Shown here in pieces: positions 6,456-32,337 of a stretch of 34,397 nucleotides of DNA. Origin of the DNA: Nitrospinota bacterium (GTDB lineage: Bacteria; Nitrospinota_A; UBA7883; JACRGQ01). The notes under the pieces were generated by a model. It worked only from the letters and a program-made list of their open reading frames with translations. It had not been told where the DNA came from and searched no databases. The DNA lies in assembly GCA_016217735.1 (NCBI GenBank), contig JACRGQ010000055.1, forward strand, positions 1 through 34,397, in the 5' to 3' direction. How positions within the stretch are numbered: the first letter of the stretch is position 1; each line of letters opens with the position of its first letter. Made by a program: the position numbers and the translations under genes.

Positions 6456-8990
6456 CTACCTGCCCAAGGTATATATTGGGCTGTCCTTGCCGAAGTTTAT
6501 GATCAGCGGCGTTTGGATATGTCCGGCCTTCTTCGATAGTTCCACCGTCGTCATCTTGGAATGCTCGCCCAGCTCGACAAGGCTCACATTGCCGTCGGCG
6601 TTGGCATCCGCCCCCCGGTTGTTGTTTAACCCGTCAAGCAGGGCATGGCTGAACAGCCCGTTCCCCTCGTAGCCGTCCAACGCCTCTTGCAAGGAACTTG
6701 CCGATGCGTAGATGTGCAACCCCATCTTCTTCGCAAGCACGGACATCCGCGCGTCGTACAACCCGCTGACGATGTAGTCCACACCCCCCGCGTGGCAGGT
6801 ATCGAAAATAAGCAACTGGGAAAGGGATTTTATCTTTTTGGACATCTCAACTATCTCGTTGGCGCTGATCAGGATGCTGTCGTTCACTTCACCGGCATAG
6901 GCATGGGTCAGCATGAAATACTGGTTCTGCAAAAGGACGCCATGCCCCGCCGCAAAAAGGATGAAGCTGTCCGAAGGCTTGATCTTCGCCGAAAGCTCAT
7001 TCACCGTATTGAGGATGTTCGCCTTGGTGGCGTTTTGGTCGGCAAGCAATTCAAGATGGATGTTTTTTGGTTTGTACAACGTAGCGGCCTGCCGAAGTAT
7101 CTTTTCCTTGATGTCCGTTGCATCCTTGACGGCGTATTTGAGGTTTACGCTGCCATCTTTGTACTGGTCTATCCCGATGGAAAGGATATAGAGGTGCGGT
7201 TCTACGGCGGGAACCTTTGAGGTGAAGCTGATGGTATTCATCTGGCTCTGCACCGTGTTATTGGCGTTAAAGGCGGTAACGCTGACCTCGTTCCCTCCGG
7301 AAACCGCATCTATCTCTCCGCAATCTTCAAATACGTCCCCTTTGTCCTTGCTCGCAATTGGACTCAGTACCGCCTTTTCCTTTATGGTTACGCCTCTCAT
7401 GTCTTCGTATATGGCTTTGCTGTTCATTGCCTGTAACTGGACGTTTCCGCTCGAAGCTCTGGCCACATCCTTATAGTACCCGTCGGATTGTACGAGTTTG
7501 CCGTTATGGAAAAGGCGGACTTCACCCACCCCTCCACCCGCGCTTTTTGCTTTAAAACAAACCTTTACCTTCGGAGCGCCAGGATCGGATATGGTATTCG
7601 TGAATTCCACTATCGGCGGGGGTGATTTAATGGCATCCTGCATCGTTATTGTAACCAGGCCTTGAATATCCTCGCCGCGCAGTTTTGCCGCCACTATATC
7701 CGGGCGGTAAAAAACGTCATAGAAGAGGTTCGTATCATATTTCCGTTCTCCCACCTTGACGCTTAGGTATTGGGCGCCCTTTTCCGAGGAGTTGTAGTGG
7801 CCTTCGGGCGTGATGATGATCCACTCTCCATCTTCAAAACCCACCAGCATGGCGGTCTCTTTGGCGGTAGCGACATCTATGACCCTTACTCCGCTATCTC
7901 CAAATGAAAGCACCAAATTTCCGCCGTTTGGGTTGAATGACGCCCCATTCGGAGGATTCCCTGTAACTTGTATATCCCATTTATTCAAGATTGTTTTTTT
8001 CTCTTCTCCCGATGCAATATCCCATATCTTGGTTGACGACCCTTGTATCAATGCGGACTTGCCGTCAGGAGAAAACGATGCCGACACGACCCGGAAACCG
8101 AGGCTGATGTTTTCGAATCCCTCAAATCTCCTTATTTCCTTTCCTGTTTCAATATCCCATATTATGACGGCGTCGGCATTGGCAATGCTTGACATTGCAT
8201 ATCTGCCGTCTGGCGAAAAAGAAAGCGATTTGGGCACAAAATTTGAAGTCGCTATGGTGAAGGATGTTTTATGTCCCTTGAATCTCCTTATTTCCTTAAA
8301 GGTTTTGGCATCAAGAAGCTTGAATTCCTCAAACCATGTGTCGCCGGTAAGGATATACCTGCCGTCAGGCGAGAAAAGCGCCCTTGAAACATAACCCTTT
8401 GTGAAAAAAGTGGCTTCAGTGGCTTTTACTGTTTTACCCGTTGATACTTCAATCATGGTAGCAGGATTGCCAGGCGCCAAAACGTATTTCCCATCCGGCG
8501 AAAATGTCGCCCTCTCTAACAGAGGATGATAGCCTGACACAGCACTGGTGGAGAAGCCGGCAGGAGGAGATGATTCCCAAACCAGCTTTCCCGATGACAT
8601 ATCCAATAGTTTCAGGGAATGGGTAGAATAACCGGCATACCCCGCCAATGCGGCATATTTGCCATCAGGAGAGAATTCAAGATGGTTAATCCATGAATCC
8701 GCTTTAATCATTCTGACCAATTTTCCTGAGGAAATATCCCATAGCCTTATGGTGCTCTCCGCGGACATCATGCCCATTCCCCCGGCTCCACCATTGTCCG
8801 CCGTCAAGACATAAGAACCATCTTTTGAAATAGCAATGGCGGTGAGACCATGGGCTGGTTTGGTCAGTTCCATAGCCATAGTTGCATCTGAACCCTTCAT
8901 ATGGACTTTGGGGATTGATTTGGCCGTGCATGAGGCAAGAAAGGCCGCCGCAAGAAATACTAACCCTATCTTCAAAGTAATTTTATCCAT
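6456..8990 (-). CDS. WD40-propeller / caspase-domain lipoprotein
   Basis: About 844 residues. The start at 8988-8990 is chosen because it begins a lipoprotein signal (MDKITLKIGLVFLAAAFLASC, lipobox LASC) and has a GGGGAAGG ribosome-binding site just upstream; the frame is open to 9068. Seven propeller blades are recognisable by repeated FSPDGKY-type turns (ISKDGSY, FSPDGKY twice, FSPDGRY twice, FSPDGKS, FNPNGGN), which makes one complete beta-propeller. A linker with Ig-like character follows, then a peptidase C14 domain with the catalytic pair His683 (FAAGHGV) and Cys732 (DTCHAGG). An EF-hand-like loop DANADGNVSLVEL lies near the C-terminus. Predicted to sit on the outside of the inner membrane or in the outer membrane. 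Base composition is AT-richer than its neighbours across 7200-8950, which hints at transfer. Confidence 0.88.
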   Translation of the reverse strand: MDKITLKIGLVFLAAAFLASCTAKSIPKVHMKGSDATMAMELTKPAHGLTAIAISKDGSYVLTADNGGAGGMGMMSAESTIRLWDISSGKLVRMIKADSWINHLEFSPDGKYAALAGYAGYSTHSLKLLDMSSGKLVWESSPPAGFSTSAVSGYHPLLERATFSPDGKYVLAPGNPATMIEVSTGKTVKATEATFFTKGYVSRALFSPDGRYILTGDTWFEEFKLLDAKTFKEIRRFKGHKTSFTIATSNFVPKSLSFSPDGRYAMSSIANADAVIIWDIETGKEIRRFEGFENISLGFRVVSASFSPDGKSALIQGSSTKIWDIASGEEKKTILNKWDIQVTGNPPNGASFNPNGGNLVLSFGDSGVRVIDVATAKETAMLVGFEDGEWIIITPEGHYNSSEKGAQYLSVKVGERKYDTNLFYDVFYRPDIVAAKLRGEDIQGLVTITMQDAIKSPPPIVEFTNTISDPGAPKVKVCFKAKSAGGGVGEVRLFHNGKLVQSDGYYKDVARASSGNVQLQAMNSKAIYEDMRGVTIKEKAVLSPIASKDKGDVFEDCGEIDAVSGGNEVSVTAFNANNTVQSQMNTISFTSKVPAVEPHLYILSIGIDQYKDGSVNLKYAVKDATDIKEKILRQAATLYKPKNIHLELLADQNATKANILNTVNELSAKIKPSDSFILFAAGHGVLLQNQYFMLTHAYAGEVNDSILISANEIVEMSKKIKSLSQLLIFDTCHAGGVDYIVSGLYDARMSVLAKKMGLHIYASASSLQEALDGYEGNGLFSHALLDGLNNNRGADANADGNVSLVELGEHSKMTTVELSKKAGHIQTPLIINFGKDSPIYTLGR

Positions 8991-9393
8991 TGACCTTCCC
9001 CCCGTTTTTCGGAGCAGATTCAATGTGAGCCTGTTATGCCATCTAATGCCATTTCTCCTGTTTGGCAAACACCGCTGGCGGCAGGTAGCCGGGCAAGATG
9101 CACTACTTGATTTTATTATACTCCCTTCTCCATTCCTCGATCACCGCCGGGCCTCAGGCGGCCTGACATCCATCCCACTGTGGATCATCATCGACCGCCG
9201 GGTATTTTGGAAGAACTTCGCCCACAGGTGCCAGTGCGCCTTGAACCTTGTGCAAGACCTCGCCGGTAACCATGAGATATGCCCACCACAACATGGATAG
9301 CCCCAGAAAAGGGACGGATGCCATAGTTGGCTGCAATTTGGCTTCCCCCTCCGGTATGGGGGCGGTTTCCGAGTGGGTAAGTGGCGAAAAAAT
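8991..9393. other. Intergenic region, 403 bases, with one possible small ORF
   Basis: Lies between the caspase gene start and tRNA-Lys. Apart from the possible 60-codon ORF at 9154-9336 (minus), no repeat, hairpin terminator or RNA signature was recognised. The caspase operon promoter should lie near 8995-9100. Confidence 0.5.
9154..9336 (-). CDS. Possible small membrane protein (60 residues)
   Basis: A short frame starting with TTG (9334-9336), five bases after a GGAGGGGGAAG Shine-Dalgarno-like run. The product would have one hydrophobic segment (about residues 6-24: ASVPFLGLSMLWWAYLMV) and a polar acidic tail ending VDDDPQWDGCQAA. Such a layout is credible for a small single-pass protein, but the length is within what chance gives in GC-rich DNA and I recognise no family. 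An internal ATG at 9324 lacks a well-placed ribosome-binding site. Confidence 0.3.
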   Translation of the reverse strand: MQPTMASVPFLGLSMLWWAYLMVTGEVLHKVQGALAPVGEVLPKYPAVDDDPQWDGCQAA

Positions 9394-9591: not shown

Positions 9592-10494
9592 TTACGGGCG
9601 CCGGGCCAAGATGTCATGCAACGATAAATTGACGCCCCCCAGCTTGCCGCCAAAGTTGGCCGCGCCGATCTTCACCACCCCCCCGCCGCCGCAAGCGGCG
9701 CGGATGCCGGCCGCCATCGCCTTTTCCGCCACATCGCGCGAAACGGCATCAATGACAATCTCGAAAACCGCTTCCACCTTTGGCGGCAATTTCCGGTTCG
9801 GGTTTTTTGCCGCCGGTATGGTGGGGCAATAATCCTCCTGCGTGGAGGCGGTCAAAAAATCATATTTGCTCCCTGGCCGGCTGGCGGCGGCCACCACACC
9901 GCCGGCGAACGGCAGAATCAGTCCCGGCATCGACGCAATGGCTTCCACCGCTTTCTCCGCCGCGCGCAGGCCGCTCTTTTGGCTCTGGGCGAAAATCCAA
10001 AAATTCGCGCCCCCCACGCCTTCGCCGATGTTCACCGTTTTTTCCACGACAAAATCCCCGGCGGTGCATGGTATCGCCACGCAGTCGCGCCCGTGGTGTT
10101 TTTCTTCCCGCTGAAAGCCGTTGCCGAAGTAACCAAGCTTTTCGCCCAGCGCGAACGGCGCGCCGGCATCCAGCCCGTTGAATACCTGCACGGTGGGCGC
10201 GGGCAGGCAGATCTGCCCCACCCTTTTGATCATCTCTTTGTGCAACGCCTCCGCCGTGCGGGCGAAAAAAAGGAGCCGGTCGCCGGGGCGGCCGTCGGGC
10301 GTTTTGAAATCGGCGGTATGCGCCTCTATCCCCGCTTCGCAGCCGCAGGCGATGATGGAGGTGGCGCACCCCGTGGCGAGGCGCGAGACATCATGCGTCC
10401 ATTTGCCGTTGCGCCCGGTCACGACGAGCCGCGCGAACGGCATGGCGAACGCCTCGGCGTGGGTCTCTTCCACCGGTATGCCGTTTATTTCCAT
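9592..10494 (-). CDS. fhcD: Formylmethanofuran:tetrahydromethanopterin formyltransferase
   Basis: A 300-residue homologue of Ftr/FhcD, which moves the formyl group between (tetrahydro)methanofuran and H4MPT in the cytoplasm. In methylotrophic bacteria it is subunit D of the formyltransferase/hydrolase complex, which releases formate. Family landmarks run the whole length: MEINGIPVEETHAEAFAM at the N-terminus, ATGCATSIIACGCEAGIE, TPDGRPGDRL, GVGGANFWIFAQSQ, PFAGGVVAAASRPGSKY and AACGGGGVVKIGAANFGGKLGG. Length matches the usual ~297. The start is at 10492-10494 (GGAG upstream), inside the last codons of fhcA with a ten-base overlap; the much longer open frame to 10749 is an artefact of high GC. 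Co-translation with fhcA is likely. Confidence 0.92.
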   Translation of the reverse strand: MEINGIPVEETHAEAFAMPFARLVVTGRNGKWTHDVSRLATGCATSIIACGCEAGIEAHTADFKTPDGRPGDRLLFFARTAEALHKEMIKRVGQICLPAPTVQVFNGLDAGAPFALGEKLGYFGNGFQREEKHHGRDCVAIPCTAGDFVVEKTVNIGEGVGGANFWIFAQSQKSGLRAAEKAVEAIASMPGLILPFAGGVVAAASRPGSKYDFLTASTQEDYCPTIPAAKNPNRKLPPKVEAVFEIVIDAVSRDVAEKAMAAGIRAACGGGGVVKIGAANFGGKLGGVNLSLHDILARRP

Positions 10495-11699
10495 TTCCCG
10501 TTCTCCACGATTACCCGCCCGCCGCGAATCACATAATGGGGGCGGGCGAACATTTCGGCCGCATCCCCTTGCTCGCGCAAGAGTACCACGTCGGCGCGCG
10601 CGCCGTTGCCGAGGCGGCCGCGCTCCGTCAATCCGCAAGCGGCCGCGGGAGCGGACCGGGTGATGACGGCGATTTCGGCCAACGTCAGTTCGCGCCGGAT
10701 TTTCGGCAACGCGGATGCGGCCACCGCCTCGGCGTTGAGCGCGGCGCAAAACGCATCACGGCGGTCCCGCTCCATCAGCATGGCGATGATGGCGGGATAC
10801 CCGGCGATGGAACCGCCCGACGGATAATCGATGGAAAGCGACAGGCGCGCAAGGTCTTTCACGGAGAGGATGAATTCCATCGCGGCGAGCCAGAGCAGCG
10901 CGTCGATATACCGCTCTTTTCTGAATTCATAGGGGGATGCCGCGAACGGCGAGCCGGTGAGCCTCAAAACCCCCTCCCCGCCGTTGTTTGAAACGCGCCC
11001 GGCCAATTCAACGTCCGCCGTGAACGTAAGCGCGGGGCCGAAGACGATGGGGCCGCAATCGGCCGAAAGGTTTTTATGCTCATCCAGCAAAGCGGCGGCT
11101 TCCACACCGCGGGGCGCCAGCCGGCTCCCTTCTTTTTCGAACGCGTAGTGCGAAATGTGCGAGAGGTGGCATCTTCGTCCGGCCGCGCGTTTGGCGAAGG
11201 TTTGCAGCCCCAAAAAACCGTCTCCTTTGGCCAGATGGGGGAGATGCAGGTGCGGCGGATTTTCGGGGAACCCGCCTGACAGGGCTTCGGCCATCCCCGC
11301 TTCGCCGAACAGTTTTACGCCAAGCGCGCCGGGCGCGCCGCGCTTCAGCGAAAGCCAGCCGCCATCCATGCCGCACTCGCTGACAAACGGGGCGAACGCC
11401 GCCCCTTGCGCGGGGGCAAGCCCCGGCTCCACCCAATACGTTATTCCCTGCACGAGAAAATTCCGCGCCGTGGAGGCGGCATCTCCCCAAGCTCCCAGCG
11501 GGATTTTTTTCCCCATGTCCGCCACGGCGAAACAGTGCGCGTGAATATCGATGCCGCCGGGGAGCGCGATGCAGCCGCGCGCGTCTATCGCCGGGCCGCC
11601 GCCATCGCCGCCGATGACGGCGCCATCCATACAAATGTCCGCCGCATCCCCCGCCTTGCCGTTCGCGGGATCGAACAGCCGCGCGCCGGTGATTTTCAC
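10485..11699 (-). CDS. fhcA: Formyltransferase/hydrolase complex subunit A (FwdA/FhcA-like amidohydrolase)
   Basis: A 404-residue amidohydrolase of the FwdA/FmdA/FhcA group, which hydrolyses formyl-(tetrahydro)methanofuran to formate. Metal-site elements are visible: HAH (53-55), a lysine at 129 in GVKLFG that fits the carboxylated lysine, PPHLHLPHL (148-156), HLSHISH (178-184) and Asp291 in IDYPSGG, where relatives have DHPNGG. The segments VFGPALTFTAD and ELTLAEIAVITRSAPAAACGL also match the family. It is about 150 residues shorter than usual (~550), losing sequence mainly between the HxH motif and PPHLHLP. It starts with GTG in a four-base overlap with the TonB-like gene. Subunits B and C are not in the window. 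Confidence 0.85.
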   Translation of the reverse strand: MKITGARLFDPANGKAGDAADICMDGAVIGGDGGGPAIDARGCIALPGGIDIHAHCFAVADMGKKIPLGAWGDAASTARNFLVQGITYWVEPGLAPAQGAAFAPFVSECGMDGGWLSLKRGAPGALGVKLFGEAGMAEALSGGFPENPPHLHLPHLAKGDGFLGLQTFAKRAAGRRCHLSHISHYAFEKEGSRLAPRGVEAAALLDEHKNLSADCGPIVFGPALTFTADVELAGRVSNNGGEGVLRLTGSPFAASPYEFRKERYIDALLWLAAMEFILSVKDLARLSLSIDYPSGGSIAGYPAIIAMLMERDRRDAFCAALNAEAVAASALPKIRRELTLAEIAVITRSAPAAACGLTERGRLGNGARADVVLLREQGDAAEMFARPHYVIRGGRVIVENGKWK

Positions 11700-28163: not shown

Positions 28164-28269
28164 GCAGATGGACGTCCCCCGCAATCGCCAAAAACCAAAC
28201 CACGCCAGCGCCGATTTTTTGAAATCTTTCGCGTTGGCCCGTATTTTTCTTGTCCGACGTATCTATTTT

Positions 28270-28337
28270 TGTCATTCTGAGTGCAACGAAAAATCCCTTT
28301 CCGGAAAGAGATCCTTCGCCTGCGGCTCAGGATGACA
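28270..28337. repeat. 68-base palindromic dispersed repeat, copy 2
   Basis: Same element as at 1791-1858 and 32262-32329, with a handful of substitutions (ATTCTGAGTGCAACGAA in place of ATTCTGAGCGTAGCGAA). It lies between the diverging LptG and CvpA genes. Confidence 0.88.
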
Positions 28338-28435
28338 ACTTGCGCCCAGCTTTATCATGAATAAAAGCGGGATAACAGGCACGGATTGTTTTTTTCCGCT
28401 TGATTATAGCCCATGGGTTCACCACAATACAGCCA

Positions 28436-29284
28436 ATGTCCATTTACTGGTTTGATTTGGTTGCCGGCGTTCTGCTGCTGGTTTTCGCCGGCTTCGGCTG
28501 GATACGCGGACTGGTAAAGGAGTTTTTTTTCACCGCCGCCTGGGCCGGCGGCTACCTGGCCGCCCTGTTCTTCTATCGGCGGGCCGCCCGCCTCCTGAAA
28601 GGGTTTATCACCTTTGCCCCCTTGGCCGACCTTGCGGGATTTTTGATCCTGTTCGCCGGCGTGTACCTCCTGGCGCGGCTTTTGGAATATGTCGTCCGGG
28701 AAAAACTCGGCTTCAAGATGCCCCGCGCGGTGGACGCCCCCGGCGGCGCATTGATGGGATTGATCAAGGGGTTCGTCATGCTGGCGGTATTTCTGATGGC
28801 CCTCGGTTATTGGCCGCCGGCCTATGAAACCCTGCTCGCCAATTCCTGGCTGATGCGCTGGACGCGGTATTTGGCGCACCCGAACGGCCCGCTGGGATTG
28901 GATGTGCGGCCATCCGGCGAGCTGAAAAACGACATTAACGAATTGAAGGGGAAGATACCGGACTTGAAAGAACTGAAGGAGGGCCTCCCCCCGATACCGG
29001 CGATCCCCGAAATGCCGGCGGAAAAGCTCCCGAAACTCCCCCCCTTGGACGCGCCGCGGATGGCCCCGGCGCAAGCGCCGCCATCGTCCCCCAAAACCGC
29101 ATTGCAACAGCCCGCCGTTTCGCCGCCACAACCGGCCTCGCCCAAAAAGCCCCCCCCCGTGCCGGCTCCGCCGCCCCGCGTAAAACAGGTTGAACCGGTG
29201 GTGAAGAAAAACCGGCCCGAAGCGGCCGTGCCGCCGGAAGACGAGGCCCGGCAGATGGACAAGTTCATAAAGTCCATCGACTAA
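28436..29284 (+). CDS. CvpA-family membrane protein with Pro-rich tail
   Basis: About 282 residues. The first ~135 residues match the CvpA (colicin V production) family: WFDLVAGVLLLVFAGFGWIRGLVKEFF, LAGFLILFAGVYLLARLLEY, and GGALMGLIKGFVMLAVFLM, that is four membrane helices. From about 150 onward is a soluble region with a short coiled segment (GELKNDINELKGKIPDLKELKEG) and a Pro/Ala-rich tail. Start ATG at 28436 chosen over an upstream TTG at 28400. CvpA function is unclear; it is needed for colicin V export and linked to envelope stress. It lies 51 bases upstream of the partner-switching module, on the same strand. Confidence 0.8.
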   Translation: MSIYWFDLVAGVLLLVFAGFGWIRGLVKEFFFTAAWAGGYLAALFFYRRAARLLKGFITFAPLADLAGFLILFAGVYLLARLLEYVVREKLGFKMPRAVDAPGGALMGLIKGFVMLAVFLMALGYWPPAYETLLANSWLMRWTRYLAHPNGPLGLDVRPSGELKNDINELKGKIPDLKELKEGLPPIPAIPEMPAEKLPKLPPLDAPRMAPAQAPPSSPKTALQQPAVSPPQPASPKKPPPVPAPPPRVKQVEPVVKKNRPEAAVPPEDEARQMDKFIKSID

Positions 29285-29335
29285 CCGGAAATCCAGGCGT
29301 TTTTTTGCTAAACTGAGAGCCGGAGGGGATGGGAA

Positions 29336-30166
29336 ATGCTCGAAGACCAGATAGTCAAAGTTTTGCTTGTTGACGATGAGCCGCACGTCACGGAGATCAT
29401 CGGGCGCATTCTTTCGCAGGCAAAGATCGGGCATCTTGCCGCATTGTCCGGCGAGGAGGCGCTCCACCTCTTGCGCACCCACCAGGTCGACCTGGTCATT
29501 ACCGACATACTGATGCCGGGGATGAGCGGCCTTGATTTGCTGGAAAAAATCAAGGAGCTTTACCCCGCGCTGCCGGTGATCGTGCTGACGGCGCACGGCG
29601 ATTTTCACGTGGCGAAAGAGGCGCTCAACCGCGGCGCGTTTTACTTTCTCACAAAGCCGTTTAACAAATCCACGATCCTGGGCGTTACCGAAAAGGCGCT
29701 GCGGCTTCCCCGGGTCACCGCCGAAAAGCGGCTGGTTTTTCCCTATGCCGTCACGACGCTCACCTACCGCATTCCGAGCGATTTCACCCTGGTGCCCGCC
29801 ATCAGCTACCAGATCATGCGGGCCTGTGAAGATATGGGATATTCCGGCAAAAAGATCAACTTCGCCATTCCGCTGGCCGTTGACGAACTGGTGGTCAACG
29901 CCATCAAGCACGGCAATAAAATGGATCCCGCGAAAAAGATCGCCGTGGAAGCCCGGGTGGGGCATGACCGTTTCACCATGACCGTCGAAGACCAGGGGGC
30001 GGGGTTCGACCATGCGGCGCTGCCGCAGGAGTTTAACGAGGAAAGTCTGCTGGCGGAAGAGGGGCGCGGCATCATGATGGTGCGCTTTTACATGGATGAG
30101 CTCCATTTCGAAAACGGCGGCCGCCGCGCCATCTGCGCCACCAAAAACGACTCCGCCGCCGGATGA
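29336..30166 (+). CDS. Response regulator fused to anti-sigma-type kinase (RsbW-like)
   Basis: A 276-residue fusion. The N-terminal receiver domain (about 6-125) has DDE (13-15), phospho-acceptor Asp57 in LVITDILMPGMSG, Thr85 in VIVLTAHGD and Lys107 in LTKPFN. The C-terminal half (about 145-270) is a GHKL-type ATPase like RsbW/SpoIIAB anti-sigma kinases: N box AIPLAVDELVVNAIKHGNK, G1 box VEDQGAGFDH and G2 EEGRGIMMVR. It should phosphorylate the STAS partner downstream, under control of the receiver. GGAGGGG is seven bases upstream of the ATG. The TGA overlaps the PP2C start by four bases. Confidence 0.88.
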   Translation: MLEDQIVKVLLVDDEPHVTEIIGRILSQAKIGHLAALSGEEALHLLRTHQVDLVITDILMPGMSGLDLLEKIKELYPALPVIVLTAHGDFHVAKEALNRGAFYFLTKPFNKSTILGVTEKALRLPRVTAEKRLVFPYAVTTLTYRIPSDFTLVPAISYQIMRACEDMGYSGKKINFAIPLAVDELVVNAIKHGNKMDPAKKIAVEARVGHDRFTMTVEDQGAGFDHAALPQEFNEESLLAEEGRGIMMVRFYMDELHFENGGRRAICATKNDSAAG

Positions 30167-31815
30167 AACCGCACCCCTTTTTCAAGACGCTCAAGGGAAA
30201 AGCCGCGCTTTTCATCCTGGCGCTTTCGCTCCTCGGCATGGCCACGCTGGTGGCGGTGCTTATGAAAACCGCACGGAGCATGCAGACGGAATTCCAAAAC
30301 GAAAAAGTCCGTCTCGTCGAGGATTTCGTGATGCGGACCCTCACCCCGGTCATGCTCGCGGGCCACGGGGAAATGATGAGCGAGCTGATGAGCAGCTACA
30401 AGGACATCCAGAACGTCAAGAAGATCGAGATCGTCCGCGTCAACGGCGCCGAGGCGTTCACCGACGGCGAAACGATGGACAAAGTGAACGGAATGCTGGG
30501 TGAAAAGCGGTTCACCCGGCGGTTAAGGCCCGCCCGCCAAGCGGTGCCGCCGGATGACCCCCGCTTCGCCACAGTGATCGCAACCGGCGGGAAAGAGGTT
30601 TACACCCGCGACGCCGATGACGGAAAAACGGTCGAGATGATGTTTCCGATCATCAACGAGGAGTCGTGCCACGGCTGCCACGGCGCCGATAACCACATCC
30701 GGGGCGTGTTGCTTTCCACCTTCGCCATGACAAAGGAGGACCGGCGCCTCATCAACGACATGCTGCTGCTGTCGGTCATCGCCTTCATCGTGATACTCAT
30801 CACCTCGTTCGGCGCCCTCGTCTTTTTCAACACGATGGTGGCCAACCGCATCACCGGCATCATCCGGCGGGTGAACGAGATCGTTACGCACAGCCACTTC
30901 AACACCCGCATAGCGATAGGCTCCGGCGACGAACTGGACGACCTCTCCGCGGCCTTCAACCACTTCATCGCTTCGGTGGAACGCTACCGCCGTGCGGAAG
31001 AGCGGGAAAAAGAGCGCCTGGAAACGACGGTGCGGGAGCGGACGAAGGAACTGCAGGAAAAAAACGATTTCATCGAGGCCGACCTCATGGTGGCCCGCCG
31101 CATCCAGCAAAAGCTGCTGCCCGAAAAATTCCCGGAGAATCCCAACACCGCATTCCACGCCGCCTACCTTCCCTGCCTGCACCTCGGCGGGGACTACTAC
31201 GACGTGTTTGAAATGCCGAACGGCCACGTGGGGGTGTTCATCGCCGACGCCTCCGGACACGGCAGCTCCGCCGCGCTCATCGTCGCCATCGTGAAGTCTT
31301 TGCTTTCCACGATCGGCAAGGAGATCGGCTCTCCCGGCTATGTGGTGCAGCAGGTGAGCAAAACATTATCCAGGCTCACGCCGGACGATTCGTTCTGCAC
31401 GCTGTTTTATGCGGTGATTAATACGCGCACCGGCGGGATGACCTATTCGCTGGCGGGGCATCCGCCGCCGGTCGTGGTGAACCGGCACACCGGCGCGGCC
31501 CGATTGCTCGAATCCAACGGCGGCCTCGTGGGAATATTCGATTTCGACCGGTTCGGCGATTCGGTGTTCATGTTCCAGCCGGGCGACCGCCTGTTCGCGT
31601 ACACCGACGGCATCGTGGAGGCGGCCAACAAAAACGCGGAACTCTTCGGGAGCGCGCGGCTGATACGCGTGCTGGAGGAAAACCGCGGACTTGACGCGGT
31701 CCGGATTACCGAAGCGGCGCTTGCGGCGATGAAAAACCACACCGGCGATGAGCCGCTGGGCGACGATGTCGCCCTGCTGGTGATGGACTACCAATATGAA
31801 GGCAAAATAGCGTAA
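30163..31815 (+). CDS. Membrane PP2C-family phosphatase with c-type-heme sensor (RsbU-like)
   Basis: A 550-residue sensor phosphatase. Membrane helices at about 14-35 and 199-223 bracket a periplasmic sensor domain that carries one heme c motif, C169-H-G-C172-H173, in INEESCHGCHG. A HAMP domain (about 224-277) and a coiled linker (275-305) lead to a SpoIIE/RsbU phosphatase (320-548) with its metal ligands: Asp344 in LGGDYYDVFEM, Asp362 in FIADASGHGSSAA, FAYTDGIVEAAN and GDDVALLVMD. It would dephosphorylate the STAS protein encoded next, releasing the output factor. Heme-c sensors of this kind are known in Geobacter chemoreceptors. Ligand (redox, NO, CO, O2) not predictable from sequence. Confidence 0.9.
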   Translation: MKPHPFFKTLKGKAALFILALSLLGMATLVAVLMKTARSMQTEFQNEKVRLVEDFVMRTLTPVMLAGHGEMMSELMSSYKDIQNVKKIEIVRVNGAEAFTDGETMDKVNGMLGEKRFTRRLRPARQAVPPDDPRFATVIATGGKEVYTRDADDGKTVEMMFPIINEESCHGCHGADNHIRGVLLSTFAMTKEDRRLINDMLLLSVIAFIVILITSFGALVFFNTMVANRITGIIRRVNEIVTHSHFNTRIAIGSGDELDDLSAAFNHFIASVERYRRAEEREKERLETTVRERTKELQEKNDFIEADLMVARRIQQKLLPEKFPENPNTAFHAAYLPCLHLGGDYYDVFEMPNGHVGVFIADASGHGSSAALIVAIVKSLLSTIGKEIGSPGYVVQQVSKTLSRLTPDDSFCTLFYAVINTRTGGMTYSLAGHPPPVVVNRHTGAARLLESNGGLVGIFDFDRFGDSVFMFQPGDRLFAYTDGIVEAANKNAELFGSARLIRVLEENRGLDAVRITEAALAAMKNHTGDEPLGDDVALLVMDYQYEGKIA

Positions 31816-31852
31816 AATAACCGCAGAGTCTGGAACCAAGGAGGAAGCGTCC

Positions 31853-32188
31853 ATGAAAATTTCCGCACGCACCGAAAACGGGGTGACAATACTCGACCTT
31901 TTGGGGAATATCAAAACCCCCGGCGATATGGAAGAGTTCTCCACCGCCATCGAAACCGAACTCGGCCGGAACAACCTGAAGCTCCTGCTGAATTTCCAGG
32001 AAGTCGGCTTCGTCAACAGCTCGGGACTGGGCCGCCTGGTGCTGGCCGCGAAAAAAGTGGGGGAGCGCGGCGGCACCATGAAGGTGACCGGCCTGGCGCA
32101 GGACCTCGACGAACTCTTCACCTTTACGCGGCTCAAAGAAAAAATCGGCGTATTCAAAAGCGAAGCGGAAGCGCTCCGCAACTTCTAA
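31853..32188 (+). CDS. STAS-domain anti-sigma factor antagonist (RsbV-like)
   Basis: A 111-residue single-domain protein of the SpoIIAA/RsbV family. The phosphorylation loop VNSSGLGRLVLAAKKV places Ser57 at the regulated position; the segment before it (LLLNFQEVGF) is the conserved core strand. It is the phosphorylatable switch between the kinase and the phosphatase upstream, completing a partner-switching set. A strong GGAGGAAG ribosome-binding site precedes the ATG. The partner sigma factor or output protein is not in the window. Confidence 0.9.
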   Translation: MKISARTENGVTILDLLGNIKTPGDMEEFSTAIETELGRNNLKLLLNFQEVGFVNSSGLGRLVLAAKKVGERGGTMKVTGLAQDLDELFTFTRLKEKIGVFKSEAEALRNF

Positions 32189-32255: not shown

Positions 32256-32261
32256 TTAGTT

Positions 32262-32329
32262 TGTCATTCTGAGTGCAACGAAGAATCCCTTTCCGGAAAG
32301 AGATCCTTCGCCCGCGGCTCAGGATGACA
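32262..32329. repeat. 68-base palindromic dispersed repeat, copy 3
   Basis: Nearly identical to copies at 1791-1858 and 28270-28337; closest to copy 2. It sits seven bases after the displaced aldolase tail. Confidence 0.9.
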
Positions 32330-32337
32330 AATCAGTG

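Follow-up and report, generated by a model that had tools for sequence, protein, structure and literature searches.

A predicted periplasmic heme c sensor on the SpoIIE-type phosphatase of a partner-switching gene cluster in Nitrospinota

What is a heme c attachment motif doing on the periplasmic side of a partner-switch phosphatase? The question is raised by four genes in a 34,397-nucleotide stretch of Nitrospinota DNA (GCA_016217735.1, contig JACRGQ010000055.1), which in its whole length is called the window here. The contig (C55) is part of a 2.5-Mb genome, 95% complete (G000), and the nearest named relatives of this genome are groundwater metagenome-assembled genomes of Nitrospinales/Nitrospinota. 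We consider it likely that these genes make up a partner-switching unit and that a c-type heme sensor in the periplasm, of the sCache_heme family to which GSU0935 and GSU0582 belong, drives its phosphatase.

Features of the unit (coordinates in the window, strand, description, matches):
28436..29284, + strand, CvpA-like inner-membrane protein, first gene of the unit (PF02674, Colicin_V/CvpA, E 1.4e-24; proline-rich tail)
29336..30166, + strand, fusion of a receiver (REC) and an RsbW-type serine kinase (PF00072, Response_reg, E 1.6e-30; PF13581, HATPase_c_2, E 2.5e-20, 73 bits)
30163..31815, + strand, sCache_heme-HAMP-SpoIIE-type PP2C phosphatase (PF07228, E 8.6e-46, 156.7 bits; PF21563, 27.0 bits; HAMP; orthologues)
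30274..30741, + strand, predicted heme sensor domain on the periplasmic side, PP2C residues 38-193 approximately (hydropathy; phmmer, 3b42; AlphaFold; Foldseek)
30352..30354, + strand, codon of Met64, predicted distal heme ligand (44/44 aligned sensors; positional counterpart of GSU0935 Met60)
30667..30681, + strand, CHGCH heme c attachment motif, C169-H173 (conserved in all 8 PP2C orthologues)
31853..32188, + strand, STAS antagonist with predicted phospho-site Ser56 in NSSG (PF01740, E 1.4e-9; S56-S57-G58 invariant in 9 sequences)

The predicted heme sensor domain

A single CXXCH in a periplasmic loop between two helices had been noticed in the first-pass annotation of the window. The motif (C169-H173) is indeed located between hydrophobic segments 12-37 and 194-228, the positive flanks of which are on the cytoplasmic side (hydropathy), and C169 and C172 are the only periplasmic cysteines of the PP2C. 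Not recognised at that stage was the nature of the loop, a known type of domain for heme sensing and a member of the sCache_heme/Mcp40H c-heme sensor family. The loop matches GSU0935 (3b42; phmmer E 5e-4) and GSU0582 (3b47; phmmer E 0.018); residues 1-300 were modelled with AlphaFold (mean pLDDT, the predicted local distance difference test, 84.6), and the top Foldseek matches of the model include 3b42 (E 2e-7) and 3b47 (E 9e-5) as well as Cache domains. The structural alignment to the GSU0935/GSU0582 type has about 17% identity, and the low Foldseek TM-scores fit 3b42 and 3b47 being domain-swapped dimers.

Three congeners encode full-length orthologues of the phosphatase at 78-83% identity; in four further genera of the family such orthologues share 39-54%. 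By the first-pass annotation, orthologues devoid of CXXCH or a genome devoid of cytochrome c maturation genes would have spoken against the sensor; the motif is kept in all eight orthologues (8/8), and CcmF/NrfE-type and CcmC-type maturation proteins are encoded in the genome of the window, by which a lack of heme maturation is ruled out. A scan of a GTDB genome set, biased to the motif CHGxD[HN]x[IV]RG, gave 79 sensor loci, with CXXCH in 79/79 relatives (chosen in part for the CHG of this motif). By composition-preserving shuffling CXXCH is obtained in 0.06% of cases; a chance motif is ruled out by the sensor homology together with the conservation in orthologues and relatives.

Met64 is invariant (44/44) in an alignment of sensors from Nitrospinota, Nitrospirota, Rokubacteria, Spirochaetes, Magnetococcales, and others. 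Selection of these 44 sequences was independent of Met64, C169, A98, and F99; CHG and D176-G181 were contained in the scan pattern, and their invariance is partly by selection. Met60 of GSU0935 is the first Met of MMKG, counted along the 3b42 chain from the heme histidine (H144); Met64 is placed in MLAG, with the same M-x-x-G spacing, and is predicted to be a distal heme ligand of the GSU0935 type.

In GSU0935 and GSU0582, Met60 is axially bound on reduction and is removed by oxidation, CO, or nitric oxide (NO), and the authors conclude that signalling follows from this change of ligand and spin (PMC8396549). By homology to these two proteins, the signal of the PP2C would be redox or NO. According to a February 2026 preprint (PMC12889525), CXXCH is present in 99% of members of the sCache_heme family (DUF3365/Tll0287), which is proposed to sense NO, and a HAMP-linked member of signalling type binds NO tightly and behaves as an NO sensor.

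The domain might instead act as a redox or electron-transfer module, or might have lost its heme and sense a small ligand like an ordinary Cache domain. Cache domains that bind ligands, CitA and KinD among them, have the same fold (Foldseek), and stand-alone sCache_heme proteins are described as redox proteins in the preprint text (PMC12889525). CXXCH and Met64 are, however, invariant, and HAMP and PP2C are attached, which the same text ties to signalling rather than redox roles; this alternative appears unlikely to us. The covalent-heme sensor proposed in the first-pass annotation stands as a prediction, backed by family membership, the conserved CXXCH and distal Met, the predicted fold, and the Ccm genes.

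The proposed partner-switching unit and its relatives

The CvpA-like, receiver-RsbW, phosphatase, and STAS genes were recovered as consecutive reading frames, at the place and with the domains first assigned to them. All four genes are arranged head to tail on the + strand (CvpA, receiver-RsbW, PP2C, STAS): 51 bp separate CvpA and kinase, the kinase gene runs 4 bp (ATGA) into the PP2C gene, and the 37 bp between PP2C and STAS contain an AGGAGG site. Terminator-like sites on the + strand between the four genes were not found in a terminator scan. Two copies of a 71-nt repeat, 97% identical, lie just outside the unit (28268-28338 and 32260-32330); the core of this repeat has 94 matches in the genome (both strands) and none for the reversed control, and it is probably a dispersed genome-wide repeat, not specific to the four genes.

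Key residues are retained in all three switch proteins. Receiver residues D13, D14, D57, T85, and K107 are intact in the family, the phospho-acceptor D57 being invariant (alignment); the N-box (E184; DELVVNAIKHG) and the DxGxG box (EDQGAGF) of the RsbW-type kinase are kept, with conservative changes in family members; the PP2C metal-ligand residues D344, D362, D482, and D535 are invariant in orthologues. The STAS protein scores 45.4 bits against TIGR00377, below the cut-off of 53.45. A second receiver-RsbW protein (G000:C59:74376-75224; L193:14377-15225) adjoins a gene that is CheX-like by eye only.

We infer heme attachment, ligand switch, direction of signalling, and target along the following lines. 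Heme would be attached by Ccm to C169/C172, with H173 as the proximal and Met64 of the first helix as the distal ligand; oxidation, or binding of NO or CO, would displace Met64 and shift helices within the dimeric sensor, a change that would travel via the second transmembrane helix, HAMP, and coiled coil to the switch helices of the PP2C. The active phosphatase would dephosphorylate Ser56 of the STAS protein, which in unphosphorylated form would bind the receiver-RsbW kinase, so that the target of the kinase is freed. Phosphorylation of receiver D57 by a histidine kinase may be a second input that tunes the RsbW-type kinase. In SpoIIE-family phosphatases the switch helices of the dimer are set by upstream regulatory domains, which activates the enzyme (PMC5468089); HAMP and a coiled coil before the PP2C fit this known control. 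If the proposal is true, an extracytoplasmic gas or redox sensor sits directly on a partner-switch phosphatase, and the combination would be a testable system in which a change of heme ligand is conveyed across the membrane to a Ser phosphatase.

The order CvpA-kinase-PP2C-STAS is kept in four relatives (G001, G002, G003, and G008); in G007, kinase-PP2C-STAS is kept as far as the contig reaches. PP2C and STAS are adjacent in 8/8 orthologous loci, with CvpA upstream in 7 of these, the window included. The suggestion that CvpA may belong to the unit is borne out by its position directly upstream of the unit in six relatives (G001, G002, G003, G008, G006, and G004), the last two of which are without the kinase gene.

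Several observations weigh against the proposed unit and its sensor. The match to PF21563 (Mcp40H-20_sensor; 27.0 bits) is exactly at the cut-off of 27.0, and that to PF11845 (15.2 bits) is below the cut-off of 24.1. CvpA, PP2C, and STAS follow one another in G004 and G006, where a kinase gene is not adjacent and a search of both genomes gave no full-length receiver-RsbW protein. In a sister genus (G005:C78, L055:7361-10231) the same sensor sits on a histidine kinase of hybrid type, an output domain swap by which the coupling of sensor and output is not fixed in the family. A dedicated sigma partner was not identified among the searched genomes.

The two separate inputs of the first-pass annotation, receiver phosphorylation and heme state, are a fair reading. 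G004 and G006 are without the receiver-kinase, however, so heme-PP2C and STAS, as one half of the switch, can occur on their own. In another family of the class (G013:C29, L182:5430-6756), receiver-RsbW adjoins STAS without a PP2C between them; the N-box and DxGxG box of this kinase look degenerate, as if only a binding function remained. From the gene orders in G004, G006, G013, and G005, the heme-PP2C was either gained or lost by a unit that is otherwise modular, and CvpA and STAS are its steadiest companions.

These gene orders also bear on whether the four genes are neighbours without a common pathway, with the PP2C acting on another STAS protein elsewhere. The kinase gene absent from G004/G006 and the receiver-RsbW and STAS pair without PP2C in G013 would agree with that; the 4-bp overlap, the lack of a terminator between the genes, and the constant adjacency of PP2C and STAS, mostly with CvpA upstream, speak against it, and we hold it to be very unlikely.

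Possible targets and a second predicted heme sensor

The module had been called a sigma switch, which found no backing: sigma factors of the SigB/F/G family over the TIGR02980 (NCBIfam) cut-off were found in 0/24 Nitrospinota genomes. The target would therefore be another sigma or no sigma at all. Six sigma-70 family proteins are encoded in the genome of the window (one RpoD-like, one FliA/WhiG-type, one RpoH-like, and three short ones like extracytoplasmic function sigmas); sigmas of FliA or RpoH type, or a non-sigma target as in SiaC-SiaD, could be candidates.

A heme-gated phosphatase with an output other than sigma, in which STAS or kinase controls an enzyme or another regulator (cf. control of the diguanylate cyclase SiaD by SiaC in Pseudomonas), is a real possibility, if somewhat short of an even chance. 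It agrees with the missing SigB/F/G-type sigma and with the better NCBIfam matches of the PP2C, SiaA and RssB/HsbR-type phosphatases among them, none of which reaches its cut-off; SiaABCD (PMC8457831) and HsbR-HsbA-HsbD (PMC6482189) act on cyclases. On the other side, a GGDEF or other effector gene was not found in the unit, and the FliA- and RpoH-type sigmas are possible targets. This alternative differs from the heme-driven unit proposed above in the target alone, which the latter leaves undefined.

Nitrospinota include nitrite oxidisers, for which NO and redox state would be natural signals. A multicopper NirK-like protein is encoded in the genome of the window (below cut-off), and G004 and G006 are without a NirK-like protein; a link to NO through this protein is not decisive.

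A sister protein of the same genome (G000:C31:25253-26680; L192:8254-9681) combines a CXXCH (CGRCH) periplasmic sensor, a HAMP-like region, and an RsbW-type HATPase_c_2 domain in one chain (PF21563, E 1.4e-3, below cut-off; HAMP-like, below cut-off; HATPase_c_2, E 7e-16). Its neighbours are, by eye, gatC/gatA-like, FHA-like, and nadB-like genes. Homologues are present in about 20 of 24 Nitrospinota genomes (most of the length matched, or fragments at contig ends); in about 120 sampled genomes of other phyla only partial matches were found, among the matches listed. CXXCH and the predicted distal Met are kept in 14/14 copies covering them, and the N-box in 15/15. From its sequence, this protein is predicted to bring c-heme sensing directly to the kinase side of a partner switch. 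We tentatively suggest, as an idea more doubtful than probable, that periplasmic c-heme (redox/NO) sensing in Nitrospinota is wired into partner switching at both enzymes (heme-PP2C in one family; sensor-RsbW kinase nearly phylum-wide), so that STAS phosphorylation depends on heme state through kinase and phosphatase alike, the output being something other than a SigB-type sigma.

Two other loci of the window are recorded here: 9592-10749 (- strand), a homologue of formylmethanofuran:tetrahydromethanopterin formyltransferase (PF02741/PF01913) that adjoins an amidohydrolase gene and is a sign of a tetrahydromethanopterin one-carbon pathway; and 6456-9068 (- strand), a fusion of WD40 repeats with a caspase-like Peptidase_C14 domain, next to DUF4384 and LPP20 genes.

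Rarity of the fusion and comparison with known systems

Kinases, chemoreceptors, and cyclases with c-heme sensors in the periplasm are known. Outputs were scanned in 75 of the 79 sensor loci: Guanylate_cyc, 37; methyl-accepting chemotaxis protein, 14; HATPase_c, 10; GGDEF, 7; SpoIIE, 6. A wide occurrence of heme-PP2C proteins is not borne out by this motif-biased scan, all 6 SpoIIE outputs among the 75 being of the same Nitrospinota family. More distant heme-PP2C fusions are present in G023 (same phylum) and in G095 and G146 (another phylum); in the neighbourhoods read for G023 and G095, no recognised RsbW or STAS gene is present.

No paper describing heme with SpoIIE, or heme with partner switching, was found in a literature search of incomplete coverage, supplementary files excluded. 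SpoIIE and PP2C are not mentioned in the main text of the sCache_heme preprint, as far as that text was available (PMC12889525), nor heme or HAMP in the available portion of a 2025 survey of bacterial PP2C. The sensor family (structures of 2008; preprint of 2026) and the partner-switch half are both known; their pairing is apparently undescribed.

Systems with SpoIIE/RsbU PP2C, RsbW-SpoIIAB, and RsbV-SpoIIAA likewise have a kinase, a phosphatase, and a STAS antagonist with the key residues; here, in contrast, a receiver is placed on the kinase and a heme sensor on the phosphatase, and a cognate SigB/F/G sigma was not found. HsbR-HsbA and CrsR-CrsA share a receiver-controlled RsbW module with a STAS partner, but receiver, PP2C, and kinase are united in a single protein in HsbR/CrsR (PMC6482189), whereas the heme-sensor PP2C is a separate membrane protein here. 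SiaABCD has a similar membrane HAMP-PP2C (SiaA); a SiaD-like cyclase is not adjacent in the window.

On the sensor side, the Geobacter chemoreceptors GSU0935 and GSU0582 (3b42, 3b47) have, as here, a PAS/Cache-like periplasmic domain flanked by two transmembrane helices, with a single CXXCH in its late part, a Met in the first-helix region (the Met60 counterpart), and HAMP after the second helix; their output is a chemoreceptor, as opposed to a PP2C phosphatase. The sCache_heme family as described in the preprint text (PMC12889525) has CXXCH between the last strands of the Cache fold, HAMP, and a signalling output in common with the protein described here, although the latter falls below the PF11845 cut-off. 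Phosphatases are named there in general terms only, in the HAMP legend; the outputs given are histidine kinases, methyl-accepting chemotaxis proteins, GGDEF/EAL proteins, and cyclases, against a PP2C in the Nitrospinota unit.

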